DNA of 23,096 bases from a virus, in the IMG/VR virus record IMGVR_UViG_3300046751_000027, positions 1 to 23,096 of that record; one strand, 5' to 3'. How positions within the stretch are numbered: position 1 is the stretch's first letter; each line of letters starts with the position of its first letter. Both the position numbers and the translations under genes were made by a program. Of this stretch, positions 716 to 15,875 are shown one piece after another. Under the pieces are notes generated by a model that was not told where the DNA came from, did not search any database, and saw only the letters and a list, made by a program, of their open reading frames with translations.

Positions 716-876
716 CAATCAAAAGCATCTCGTTTCTTTAATATTTCTACTTCCGAAAAACATTTAGGACAGGATAAGTTGGTCATTATTGAAAATTCGG
801 GATAACCATTCATCCCATCTTCGATATCAATGTCACCACCTATTATTAATTCTGTATTGCACCAATAACAATTCAT
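715..876 (-). CDS. small zinc-ribbon protein
   Basis: A 53-residue protein with two CxxC knuckles: CYWC at residues 3-6 and CPKC at 36-39. The spacing and the stretch between them (IIGGDIDIEDG...MTNLS) match the small treble-clef/zinc-ribbon proteins common in phage genomes. Four cysteines predict one structural zinc. The start ATG overlaps the stop of the upstream membrane-protein gene by one base (TAATG), and its own stop overlaps the next ATG (TGATG), so it sits in a tightly coupled small-gene operon. The specific partner (nucleic acid or protein) cannot be read from the sequence. Confidence 0.75.
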   Translation of the reverse strand: MNCYWCNTELIIGGDIDIEDGMNGYPEFSIMTNLSCPKCFSEVEILKKRDAFD

Positions 877-1145
877 TAGAACTTAGGAAGTTTTGTTGTG
901 GGTAGAGATGGGCCTGTCATATCAGGTAATCCTTGGTCTAACATCTTTGGCATAAGTCCTTGTACATTACCTAAGACTTCGTTCATTAATTTTGTTTTAA
1001 ACTGTTCTGATGTTACATATTTATAACCAAAGTAGCTTCCACCGATGACAGATGACACCAAAACAAAGGAAACTATACTAAGAATGTTAGCTATTTTTTG
1101 AAACATGATAAAAGAAGCATTTTTAAAAGCATTAATGCCTGTCAC
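876..1145 (-). CDS. small one-pass membrane protein, unknown role
   Basis: An 89-residue product if translation starts at the GTG at 1145, which has GAAGG 8 bases upstream; an ATG at 1106 would give a 76-residue form. One strongly hydrophobic segment (NILSIVSFVLVSSVIGGSYFG, roughly residues 20-41) is followed by a soluble tail with TSEQFKTKLMNEVLGNVQGLMPKML and a terminal MTGPSLP...PKF pattern. The single span and small size fit a virion-associated or lysis-related membrane protein, but a lone span with a Pro-rich tail is not enough to call a holin. It lies downstream of the fibre genes. The tail pattern reminds me of small proteins in marine siphophages of unknown function. Confidence 0.65.
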   Translation of the reverse strand: MTGINAFKNASFIMFQKIANILSIVSFVLVSSVIGGSYFGYKYVTSEQFKTKLMNEVLGNVQGLMPKMLDQGLPDMTGPSLPTTKLPKF

Positions 1146-11415: not shown

Positions 11416-11756
11416 TAGGGTTCAAATACTTGTGTAAATGTTGCATTAATTCTATTTCGATCAAAACTAAATACTTCTTTAGTAAAAGAAGGACATACCC
11501 ATTTAAAAGTAGTAGATGAATCTGGAGGAGACCAATCAAAAGATGCTCCATCAACTTTTCTTGCTTCTAAAAATGTTTCAATTTCTCCTGCATCTTCATT
11601 GTCAACATTAAATGTAAGACTCCATTGCTTTGCTTTTTGATTTATACCAAATGTAAATCTTTGTTGGTAGCCATCACCAAACTGAACTGTTCTGGTATTA
11701 GTAATATCAGTTTTATTTGCAGAAAAAACAGGGTTATAACTAGGAAAAGTAGCCAT
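11415..11756 (-). CDS. M: minor tail protein, lambda M family
   Basis: A 113-residue protein matching the phage minor tail protein M family in length and pattern: FGDGYQQRFTFGINQKAKQW near residues 27-46, then a helix (EDAGEIETFLEARKV) and GASFDWSPPDSSTTFKWVC, ending in a beta strand. It probably forms part of the ring at the distal end of the tail tube, connecting the tape measure with L. The gene overlaps the tape measure stop and the L start by one base each (TAATG), and its place between tape measure and L is exactly that in lambda-like phages. Confidence 0.88.
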   Translation of the reverse strand: MATFPSYNPVFSANKTDITNTRTVQFGDGYQQRFTFGINQKAKQWSLTFNVDNEDAGEIETFLEARKVDGASFDWSPPDSSTTFKWVCPSFTKEVFSFDRNRINATFTQVFEP

Positions 11757-14455
11757 TATCTTAATAAACCTCCAGGTCTTCTTTGTTTTAATAATTCTGA
11801 TTGTATCGCTGCTGAGATAGCCCTGCCAAGTTCTTTACTTTGTTGTTCATCACCTTGAACAGACGATCCAGAAGCATCTACATTTACGCTGATGTTTGTA
11901 CTACCTCCTCCACCTAATTTATCATTAGGTATTATTGTACCTGATCTTTTGGGTACGAATAATTCTGGGCCTTTCTCTCCCACTAATGATGGTTTACCTA
12001 CAGGTGGATTTCCTCCACTTGCAAAACCTAAAAGTCCTCCAAAACCAGGTATTCCTCCCAAAATAGTGTTTACACCGAGTCTTATTAGACTTGAAGATAA
12101 ATCGTTCAATATTGATTTTGCGGCATCACCTAAAGATTTTGTTCCTTGAATAGCCGCAACCAGATTATCACTAACACCAGAAGCAATAGATTCTCCAATT
12201 TTTTCAAAGGCTGTGCTTATATCAGTAGTTGCTTCATGTAATTTTACTGTTAATTCTACTGATCTCAGCTTTTCATCATTTACACCTTTTATAATATTTT
12301 TTTGTTCTTCTATCTTTGCATTTGCTATATCAATGTTTTCTTGTTCTTTTGTGTTAATTCCAAATCTTTTTTCTGCATTTTCTTTTATTCTATCTCTTTC
12401 TTTTGTTAACTGATCTAATGTCATGTCTAAGGTATCTCTTCTAAGATCAAATTCCTGTTGAACTTTAGACACCTTTTCAGCAAGAGCAGTCTTCATGGAG
12501 AGCTCATTTTGCTTTATTCTGTCTCTTAAATCTATTTCTTCCTCTAATTGTTTTAATGTAATCTTCCCTTCGTTTACAGTAGCTCCAGCTTGTATTCTTG
12601 TTTTTTCTTCTGCTGCAAATATTTTTTCTTGTTTTGATAATCTTTCGTCATCTGCTCCCTGTCCAGAAACTCCAGATAGACCTTTAGCAAGACCTCCAAA
12701 TCCAGCACCTCCAGGGGTAAATACCTGACCTATTTTACCAAAAAATGTATTATTAATTGCATTATCTAGCTTACTAAAAAATCCTTGATTTTCCCTACGA
12801 TCTAATAATCCTTGGGCTTCTTCATTACCTGTTCCTGCTGCTCCTGCCACTATATCTCTTGCTTCTCCTCTTTCCAAAGCTTCACTTAAACCTAAAACTT
12901 CATTTGTAAAATTAATTATTCTAGCTACTACAGTCTGTAATTGAAGATTTAATTTAGCAAATTCTTGTGACATTAACCTACCTGTATTTGCAAATTTTTC
13001 AATAGCATCTACACCTCCTCGACCTATCTGCCTTGCCATGATTGCTGTAGCTGCGTTAAATGCAGCAGTCTTACCCTCAACTTGTTCTATTAATTTAATC
13101 TGTGCTTCTTGTGCAGACCCTTGCAATCCAAGGGCATCTGTTACGGCTTGTGTATTTTGAGTGAATGGACCAAGTGCATTACCTAATTCACTAATTCCAT
13201 TCAAAAATCCTTGAATTTGTTGAACTATTGCTGTAGCTGCTATACCTCCTGCAAAACCACCCATGCCACCAAACATTCCACCGACACCACCACCTAAAGC
13301 ACCCGCAGCAGCACCTATTGGACCTTGACCGAATAACAAAGGAAACGCACCACTTATTAAAGCACTTTCCATGTCAAAGCCCTTTGTAGCTCCGATAGAT
13401 TGCATAAAACCCATTTTTGGGATTCCTCCAGCAAACCGACTTTGACCGCCAAAACCTCCTCCCTGTCCTGTTGCTCTCACTCTTGTATCTAACATTTCGG
13501 AACTAGGTAGAGCTAACATTCTTCCTCCCGATCCCCTAGTTCTTGTCAATCCCTGCTGAAAGTCTTCAATTCTTCGACCAAATTTTCCAAAACTATCTCC
13601 TAATTTTCTCAATCTTGTAGCCTGAGTTGCTGACAACTTATTCTGCTTGTCTATAGCCTTATTTACTTTTATAGCTTGTCTATTTCTAATTCTTTCCGAT
13701 CCAATTAACTTTTCATTTTCTTCAACACCTCTAGCTATAGCAGCATTTCTTCGTTTTTCAAATAATTCAGCTTTTTCAACTGATGTTGCGGTAAAGGAGG
13801 AAGTTATTCCTCCTGTTGGTCTACTTGATAATTGTGAAGCAGTAGGTATTCTTTGTATTCCTCTATTCTGTATGTCCTTAGAACTTGGTAAACCCAGTAA
13901 ATTATTCGGACCAGCACCTTTTCTTTGACTGTCAATAAATCCACCCATTCCTCCTGCTGCTTTATTAAAGCCACCAGATAGACGCAAAACATTTATTCTT
14001 TCCTGTGCAGTTAAAGTTTTCTGTGTTGCTTTTGCTACTTCGGTTTGAGCTTTTTGTTGTTTTTGTGTGGTTAATATTAATTTTTCAGCATTTTGAATTT
14101 TCTTCTTTTGTTCCTCAATAATTTTTCTGTCTTTACTTAAATTGTCATCTATGCTTCTACTCGCAACTTTTTTTAAAGCTGCCATTTCTTCTTCTAAAGT
14201 TACTCCAATTTTCTTTAGTTTGTTAGCTGCTCTTTGTGCTCTATTTATATTAGATAAAGCTGTATTTTGAAGTTTTAAACTAACTATTTCATCTTTTAAT
14301 GGATCTTTAGTAGTTTTAGATCCTCCTGCACCGCCTTTTAAATTTTTCTTATTTATTGCATTTACATTTTTACTTATACTGCTTAACTTCTTTTCTAATT
14401 GACTAATCGAGCCAAGATTCCGTACTTTTACATCTATCTCGGCTTTATATGCCAC
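11756..14455 (-). CDS. tail length tape measure protein
   Basis: An 899-residue protein, the longest after J. It starts at a GTG with only a weak ribosome-binding site. Residues 1-165 are charged coiled coil (LEKKLSSISKNVNAINKKNL, then EEQKKKIQNAEKLILTTQKQ). A Gly/Ala hydrophobic stretch at about 345-415 (ALISGAFPLLFGQGPIGAAA, GALGGGVGG) is the usual membrane-active segment of tape measures. A second coiled coil spans about 620-735. The C-terminus has the recurrent GFASGGNPPVGKPSLVGEKG and PELFVPKRSGTIIPN motif. The protein sets tail length and is expected to be wrapped by the G and GT chaperones encoded immediately upstream. By the lambda ruler rule, 899 residues suggest a tail of moderate length. 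Confidence 0.92.
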   Translation of the reverse strand: MAYKAEIDVKVRNLGSISQLEKKLSSISKNVNAINKKNLKGGAGGSKTTKDPLKDEIVSLKLQNTALSNINRAQRAANKLKKIGVTLEEEMAALKKVASRSIDDNLSKDRKIIEEQKKKIQNAEKLILTTQKQQKAQTEVAKATQKTLTAQERINVLRLSGGFNKAAGGMGGFIDSQRKGAGPNNLLGLPSSKDIQNRGIQRIPTASQLSSRPTGGITSSFTATSVEKAELFEKRRNAAIARGVEENEKLIGSERIRNRQAIKVNKAIDKQNKLSATQATRLRKLGDSFGKFGRRIEDFQQGLTRTRGSGGRMLALPSSEMLDTRVRATGQGGGFGGQSRFAGGIPKMGFMQSIGATKGFDMESALISGAFPLLFGQGPIGAAAGALGGGVGGMFGGMGGFAGGIAATAIVQQIQGFLNGISELGNALGPFTQNTQAVTDALGLQGSAQEAQIKLIEQVEGKTAAFNAATAIMARQIGRGGVDAIEKFANTGRLMSQEFAKLNLQLQTVVARIINFTNEVLGLSEALERGEARDIVAGAAGTGNEEAQGLLDRRENQGFFSKLDNAINNTFFGKIGQVFTPGGAGFGGLAKGLSGVSGQGADDERLSKQEKIFAAEEKTRIQAGATVNEGKITLKQLEEEIDLRDRIKQNELSMKTALAEKVSKVQQEFDLRRDTLDMTLDQLTKERDRIKENAEKRFGINTKEQENIDIANAKIEEQKNIIKGVNDEKLRSVELTVKLHEATTDISTAFEKIGESIASGVSDNLVAAIQGTKSLGDAAKSILNDLSSSLIRLGVNTILGGIPGFGGLLGFASGGNPPVGKPSLVGEKGPELFVPKRSGTIIPNDKLGGGGSTNISVNVDASGSSVQGDEQQSKELGRAISAAIQSELLKQRRPGGLLR

Positions 14456-14505: not shown

Positions 14506-15038
14506 CTATCTTCTACGTTTAATTTTATTAAACTCTTTTTCTTGCTCTTCATTTACTACTTGGAAGTAAGCACTCCAGCCAATAAGTTCCTGCTCTGTCA
14601 TTTCTCCAATCTCGTAGAGCGTTTTACCTAGTTCTTTGGCTACTGCGAACTTAAGCATCATCCAGTTATCTCTTTTTAACTGGCTGGCTAAGATTTTGGG
14701 TCTATTACTTCTTCCTCCTCTGCATTTATAACTGCGAGCATAAGAGATTGTAGGTCACTGTCCTTAACTTCATTTTTAAGAACGTCTATTTCTCCTGGAT
14801 TAAATAGCTTCGTTCCGTTTGCATCTAATGCTTTGTTTATTAATAATTGTAAAGCGAAAGCATTTGAGTCATCGCCTCTAGCCTGTTTTTGGGCTCTTTC
14901 TCGCTCTGCCATTGTTAATGGTGTTACAAACATCTCGAAAGTCGAACCATCGGATAGAGTTACTTGTTTTTTGATTGGTTCGAGATTTGCAGCTTTTTTA
15001 AGTCTGTCGAGAGCGTTCAATGTCGCCATAAGTTTCAT
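14506..15038 (-). CDS. tail assembly chaperone GT, made by -1 frameshift
   Basis: Translation begins with the 116-codon G frame and can slip back one base at C CCA AAA (14700-14694), continuing for 62 codons in the new frame to a TAG at 14506-14508. The product is about 177 residues. The T extension reads ILASQLKRDNWMMLKFAVAK, followed by ELGKTLYEIGEMTEQELIGW and SAYFQVVNEEQEKEFNKIKR. The 'ELGxTxxEIxxMTxxELxxWxAYF' pattern is the typical T-domain signature, so the frame is coding and does not look random. In lambda, gpGT binds the tape measure through the G part and recruits tube protein through T. Confidence 0.88.
14688..15038 (-). CDS. tail assembly chaperone, lambda G-like
   Basis: The 116-residue zero-frame product lies directly between the tail tube terminator and the tape measure, the fixed position of G. 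The N-terminal part (MKLMATLNALDRLKKA) leads to VTLSDGSTFEMFVTPLTMAE and RERAQKQARG, then a helical half ending in the acidic AEEEEVIDPKS. Lambda G is of similar size and is a soluble chaperone that coats the tape measure during tail assembly. An internal ATG at codon 4 is an alternative start; neither has a strong ribosome-binding site. G should be the major product, and GT the minor one. Confidence 0.85.
   Translation of the reverse strand: MKLMATLNALDRLKKAANLEPIKKQVTLSDGSTFEMFVTPLTMAERERAQKQARGDDSNAFALQLLINKALDANGTKLFNPGEIDVLKNEVKDSDLQSLMLAVINAEEEEVIDPKS
14694..14700 (-). promoter_or_regulatory. -1 programmed frameshift slippery heptamer (CCCAAAA)
   Basis: On the coding strand the zero frame reads GAC CCA AAA TCT TAG. 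The heptamer C CCA AAA has the X XXY YYZ form and allows both tRNAs to re-pair as CCC AAA in the -1 frame. The zero-frame stop lies only one codon after the site, and the -1 frame is open for 62 codons after it, encoding a recognisable T domain. This is the same logic as the lambda G/GT site, although the heptamer differs. I did not identify a clear stimulatory stem-loop just downstream. Confidence 0.88.
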
Positions 15039-15125: not shown

Positions 15126-15875
15126 TTATGCAGATTTAGATAGATCGAATGTAGGAGCAGCACTAGGTCTGAACGCTATTTCTACAACCTGTCCGTCATC
15201 TGGGTTTACGTTGAAACTTGCAGAAGTAAGAATAATGTCTGCCAGAATTGATCTACTTGCGTTTTGATCTACGTTAGCACCACTCATCTGACGATCAATG
15301 TACAATCTTACCTTTGCACCAGCTTGCTGACGTTGGATAACATCTTCAACCATTCTACTGGATAGAAGTGTATCATCATCCGTTGAATAAACACTAGCAG
15401 AGCCACTACCATCAGCAAAACCTGAGATGAAGGTTCTAAACGGTGCAGTCTGAGTAACAGTTTGACCGATACTTGTTACGTCAATTTCTGCTCTGGTTAT
15501 TTCAAAACTCCATTCTCTTACAGATCCAACAACTAATGGTGTAGTAAATGTAATGCTTGCAAAAGTTCCTGCTGTAAAAGTAGGTGCTGCTGAAGCTGTT
15601 AATGCTGCTCCTCCTGCTGTTGCAGAAAGTGTCATAACACCAGTTGAAGCATCGTAAGTTTTTACAAAATGATCTCCTGCTGCAATACAGTTAGTTAATG
15701 TTGCTCCTGATGGATATGCAAGTGTTACTGTATCGTTAACTTTGTAACCCAACTGAGATCCTACAGTAATGTTTCCTCCTGATGAAGGAAAAGCTGTAGC
15801 TGCAAGAGTTGTTACGCTTGTACCAGCAGGAGAATAGTATAACGCTCCCGAAGTACCCGATAGAACTGTAGCCAT
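15126..15875 (-). CDS. major tail tube protein
   Basis: A 249-residue protein. The core (VREWSFEITRAEIDVTSIGQ, TVTQTAPFRTFISGFADGSG, and a C-terminal half with DILLTSASFN-like strands) is the standard tail tube fold of siphoviruses, which polymerises as stacked rings around the tape measure. Residues about 30-105 form an additional beta module (ITVGSQLGYKVNDTVTLAYP, HFVKTYDASTGVMTLSATAG, GAALT), which probably decorates the outside of the tube and is an insertion relative to the minimal family. The start lacks a Shine-Dalgarno sequence. The gene is set off by a 76-base upstream gap and a strong terminator downstream, as expected for a highly expressed structural gene. Confidence 0.88.
   Translation of the reverse strand: MATVLSGTSGALYYSPAGTSVTTLAATAFPSSGGNITVGSQLGYKVNDTVTLAYPSGATLTNCIAAGDHFVKTYDASTGVMTLSATAGGAALTASAAPTFTAGTFASITFTTPLVVGSVREWSFEITRAEIDVTSIGQTVTQTAPFRTFISGFADGSGSASVYSTDDDTLLSSRMVEDVIQRQQAGAKVRLYIDRQMSGANVDQNASRSILADIILTSASFNVNPDDGQVVEIAFRPSAAPTFDLSKSA

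Follow-up and report, generated by a model that had tools for sequence, protein, structure and literature searches.

The virus fragment analysed here, a 23-kb metagenome contig from IMG/VR (23,096 nt; hereafter the window), very probably carries a lambda-type G/GT gene within the tail module of a lambda-like siphovirus, in which a −1 frameshift on the heptamer C_CCA_AAA extends a tail assembly chaperone (G) into a second domain (T) encoded in an overlapping frame. The signal in the window is itself of a well-known type; the surprise appears to lie in close relatives that shift in the opposite direction. Across the G/T family we think it reasonably probable that −1 shifting on C_CCA_AAR and +1 shifting on AAA_AG(C/T) have repeatedly replaced one another at the same lysine codon and junction, at least once by recombination of a cassette, and that AAA_AGC serves as a bacterial +1 site that requires no stop codon in the A site. 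We infer the shift by the ribosome, its frequency, the effect of a Shine–Dalgarno (SD)-like element and the role in assembly from sequence, conservation, coding in the −1 frame, homology and gene order.

The heptamer and the −1 frame

The elements on which the argument turns are as follows.

14688..15038, minus strand: G ORF, tail assembly chaperone, 116 aa, zero frame, stop TAG 14690–14688
14694..14700, minus strand: putative slippery heptamer C_CCA_AAA (C_CCA_AAR in 75/75 distinct close relatives)
14506..14694, minus strand: T domain, −1 frame, 62 codons plus TAG 14508–14506
14659..14661, minus strand: first ATG of the T frame, the internal start of a rival explanation, missing in three relatives named below
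14714..14719, minus strand: SD-like AGGAGG, a probable 5′ stimulator judged from its sequence and position
11756..14455, minus strand: tape measure protein (lambda H position), beginning 50 nt past the T stop
15126..15875, minus strand: ORF where lambda V (major tail protein) would lie, assigned by position and without a family match

The minus strand around the site reads GAG GAG GAA GAA GTA ATA GAC CCA AAA TCT TAG. In the zero frame GAC (14702–14700), CCA (14699–14697) and AAA (14696–14694) are followed by TCT, the single sense codon between the heptamer (14700–14694) and TAG (14690–14688), and the initial annotation, which had placed CCCAAAA one codon ahead of the zero-frame stop, was therefore right in its minus-strand coordinates. 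Its 62-codon −1 frame is likewise borne out: reading from 14694 gives ILASQLKRDNWMMLKFAVAKELGKTLYEIGEMTEQELIGWSAYFQVVNEEQEKEFNKIKRRR and then TAG 14508–14506, and the frame is open from about position 14754. The ORFs of the window contain 51 in-frame X_XXY_YYZ heptamers in 6591 codons, which puts the chance expectation for the final two codons ahead of any one stop at about 0.015; an open frame of 62 codons arose in 0.08% of dinucleotide shuffles. Since the heptamer is kept in 75 distinct relatives, heptamer and open frame together lie far beyond chance.

We propose that most ribosomes would stay in the zero frame as far as TAG 14690–14688, making G of 116 aa, and that a minority would slip one base back on C_CCA_AAA, the peptidyl-tRNA-Pro re-pairing from CCA to CCC and the tRNA-Lys from AAA to AAA. 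After the slip 62 more codons would be read, giving a GT protein of 177 aa with the junction ...EEVIDPK-ILASQLKRDN.... In E. coli the related heptamer C_CCA_AAG shifts very readily (PMC5009743). As in lambda, G may coat the tape measure, with the T part of GT perhaps recruiting the major tail protein.

Conservation, coding selection and rival explanations

Relatives of G and of T were drawn from IMG/VR, the close set comprising 75 distinct sequences. The heptamer is C_CCA_AAA in 55 of these and C_CCA_AAG in 20, it always lies 10 nt ahead of the stop, and T is always in −1 (75/75). Codon choice at the site is invariant (GAC in 75/75 against 37% elsewhere in G, and CCA in 75/75 against 60%), the sequences being related and these counts thus not independent. 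Several close relatives have a −1-frame stop immediately 5′ of the heptamer (TTGACCC, giving TGA-CCC-AAA), which confines the shift to about 10 nt.

Purifying selection acts strongly on the T frame in −1 and not on the other two frames. Over 37 disjoint pairs its pN/pS is 0.14, and of 653 changes 411 fall at third codon positions, against 156 and 86 at the other two, with a median dN/dS of 0.7 and 1.4 when the same DNA is read in the other frames. The initial annotation had interpreted the site as a G/GT −1 frameshift and had named a −1 frame without conservation as the result that would speak against it; the frame proves to be conserved and under purifying selection, and its interpretation is further supported by the PHROG shared with lambda T and by the HK97 chaperone fold predicted for G (see below).

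It is very unlikely that T is instead a separate small protein of 51 aa, produced by internal initiation or re-initiation at the ATG at 14661 with no frameshift at all. Most close relatives do have an ATG-ATG at the corresponding site, and a ribosome re-initiating after the G stop would be close by, but the −1 frame is conserved ahead of this ATG too (residues L..QLK+DN), and L068, L071 and L082 have no ATG at the equivalent site. Moreover, G coding by itself would not require this heptamer, yet it never varies, and in the relatives whose T lies in +1 the two domains are still joined at the residue used by the −1 fusion. Slippage by RNA polymerase, rather than by the ribosome, we regard as scarcely credible: the A run that it would use exists at the shift site, but is only 4 A long (3 A in the C_CCA_AAG relatives), and the tracts described for bacterial slippage measure about 9 A or T (PMC5009743). 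That the frame break stems from faulty sequencing or assembly, or that T is a decaying remnant, is extremely improbable even for a record that is a metagenome contig, since the same arrangement recurs in 75 distinct contigs and in cultured phages and purifying selection on T is contrary to decay. A −1 shift by the ribosome is the reading that we favour.

Gene neighbourhood and the G and T domains

On the minus strand the head genes (the end of terminase, portal, scaffold, major capsid protein, head–tail adaptor and head closure) are followed by neck/tail completion, tail terminator, the ORF in the major-tail-protein position, G, T and the tape measure, and after the tape measure by minor tail M, L, K, I and J. 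This tail-gene order is that of lambda V-G-T-H, and the minor tail genes are also in lambda order. The virus is a marine tailed virus, probably of a cyanobacterial host, given that its closest cultured relative infects Synechococcus; bacterial genomes scanned as hosts gave 121 pattern matches, with no relative confirmed among them. A small ORF (876–1145, minus strand), flanked by the tail genes on one side and by ORFs of unknown function on the other, matches PHROG 568, ‘plasmid stability’ (3e-16).

The window G matches PHROG 20784 (2e-35) and the tail assembly chaperone PHROG 344 (1e-4), and one of its relatives matches Phage_TAC_13 (5e-4). The structure models were made from alignments from which rows of annotated phage records had been left out. 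For the AlphaFold model of G (pLDDT 76) the best PDB match is the HK97 tail assembly chaperone 2ob9 (E 9e-4, TM ~0.5, 17% identity, the model being of moderate confidence), and T is predicted to be a helical domain (pLDDT 83). PHROG 337 is matched by the window T (6e-4), by its best relative (8e-8) and by lambda T (5e-7); profile alignment places T residues 12–45 on lambda T residues 6–41 (P 0.011), a weak pairwise match, so that the connection to lambda T rests on the shared PHROG. Pfam searches with the window G and T returned no significant match, PDB sequence searches with the G and T profiles no relevant one, and the direct comparison of G with lambda G no profile match. A single viral protein model, BFVD entry D6PII1 (179 aa), matches the models of both G and T; it may be that G and T share a single frame in some relatives, or that the record has the frames joined.

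Probable stimulatory signals

Upstream of the heptamer, GAGGA (14717–14713) ends 12 nt ahead of C_CCA_AAA in the window, and it is present in 26/26 thinned close relatives at 9 or 12 nt. GAG makes up 16% of Glu codons elsewhere in G, and none of the 59 sequences with two Glu codons at the SD-like positions uses GAA-GAA. SD stimulators of −1 shifts act at a spacing of 9–14 nt (reviewed in PMC5009743). The element, carried by 23/23 thinned members of the tree clade that includes the window, is a probable clade-specific stimulator of the −1 shift: AGGAGG would pair with the ribosomal anti-SD and so probably aid the slip. Conservation of GAGGA could come in part from Glu coding and shared ancestry. 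As a family-wide feature the element was considered and rejected, being found in 30 of 44 thinned C_CCA_AAR loci and in 7 of 25 thinned +1 loci. Downstream, in models of pseudoknot-free structure, RNAalifold yields no base pair and the mean z is −0.6 to −1.0, and 3′ RNA structure would apparently play no part in the slip.

Shift direction in the wider family

The wider set comprises 344 distinct G+T loci, with T in −1 in 246 and in +1 in 98 (the sample is query-driven, so that these counts are not natural frequencies). Among the 246 −1 loci the site is CCCAAAA in 137, CCCAAAG in 61, AAAAAAC in 38, CCCCAAG in 6, AAAAAAA in 2 and GGGAAAG in 1, and one has no heptamer. The last is Prochlorococcus phage MED4-184 (L002; the same sequence is found in P-HS2), with T in −1 and, at about 1985–2004, the sequence GCAAAGGAATCCTAA, in which X_XXY_YYZ is absent ahead of the G stop. 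In the GC-rich loci L215, L220, L223, L224, L230 and L232, also with T in −1, C_CCC_AAG replaces the canonical heptamer, and a slip on CCCC by the P-site tRNA-Pro alone would fit this.

All 98 +1 loci (L228, L260, L261, L263, L266, L267, L269, L273, L003 and most distinct loci of L358–L458) carry GA(C/T)-NNN-AAA-AG(C/T), with AGC in 97/98 and AAA in 98/98, even though these genes use AAG more often than AAA for Lys. The Lys codon of AAA_AG(C/T) is the homologue of the one in the −1 heptamer. In the subgroup with ATG-AAA-AGC the +1 frame has TGA directly 5′ of AAA-GCN, and a ribosome therefore cannot enter +1 any earlier. The simplest reading of these sequences is that tRNA-Lys re-pairs at +1 on AAAA. 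Slippage by −2, which would lead into the same frame, was considered for the +1 loci and rejected: by the base pairing deduced from the sequence, a step of two bases back at AAA_AGC would leave neither tRNA able to re-pair, while at +1 tRNA-Lys would re-pair fully. The +1 T frame has a pN/pS of 0.145 (2.5 and 1.0 in the other frames) and is thus under the same purifying selection as the −1 T, and the fused junctions align without a gap (DPK-ILASQLKKDN in −1 against DMK-ALKIELKKDN in +1).

On a G tree from which the shift region was left out (80 rows and 99 columns, with many forks unresolved and a few branches long), the distribution of shift direction needs 7 changes, at least 4 of them forced by well-supported branches. 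The −1 locus L465 and the +1 locus L495 are sisters on this tree (support 99/94); their DNA is closely similar along G and very different over the stretch that begins at the shift site and spans T. That the similarity stops at the shift site suggests replacement of a cassette, and recombination is the likely route by which shift site and T were exchanged together. The literature searched (partial, open-licence only), that on chaperone frameshifts in cyanophages included, contains no report of the CCCAAAA or AAAAGC site, nor of direction switching inside one family.

The window thus offers a clean, heavily conserved example of C_CCA_AAA G/GT recoding in marine phages, and the family offers a natural experiment, in which closely related phages apparently reach the same GT through −1 or +1 at the same codon. 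It becomes testable whether the direction of the shift matters, or only the G:GT ratio.

Comparison with known systems

Like the window, lambda has for gpG/gpGT two overlapping frames between the major tail protein and the tape measure, an X_XXY_YYZ heptamer near the end of G, and a T that is reached from G and matches PHROG 337. The slippery heptamer of lambda is G_GGA_AAG; that of the window is C_CCA_AAA. The T domain of the window is also shorter, at 62 aa, than that of the lambda record (144 aa), an SD-like element lies upstream in the window, and the two G sequences are not alignable by profile. In fold the window G model comes closest to the HK97 chaperone 2ob9, at the low sequence identity given above.

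Among cultured phages, cyanophage KBS-S-2A of Synechococcus WH7803 resembles the window in its G (65% identical), in its T (52% identical) and in having T in −1, with an SD-like GAGGA 9 nt upstream, but differs in its heptamer, A_AAA_AAC, which lies immediately ahead of TAA. The GenBank records of KBS-S-2A (L001; 4327–4503) and of MED4-184 (2001–2171) have no CDS for the T domain, and T is accordingly absent from the annotation of cultured relatives, much as the initial annotation had expected when it warned that such a frame is easily lost in gene calls. Cyanophage S-2L, with a G 43% identical to that of the window, has C_CCA_AAG at the homologous place and a T-like −1 frame; unlike in the window, no stop stands beside the heptamer, and the zero frame runs on into a longer G.

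With regard to stimulation, the window resembles dnaX-type −1 signals, AGGAGG lying within the 9–14 nt spacing of their SD stimulators. Finally, G/GT pairs are known to be made by shifts in other directions, +1 in HSTV-2 and −2 in Mu, within a recognized variety of −1, −2 and +1 among phages (PMC5009743). The window has the same gene pair as these two phages and would reach T by −1, and some relatives of the window would reach it by +1 on AAA_AGC.
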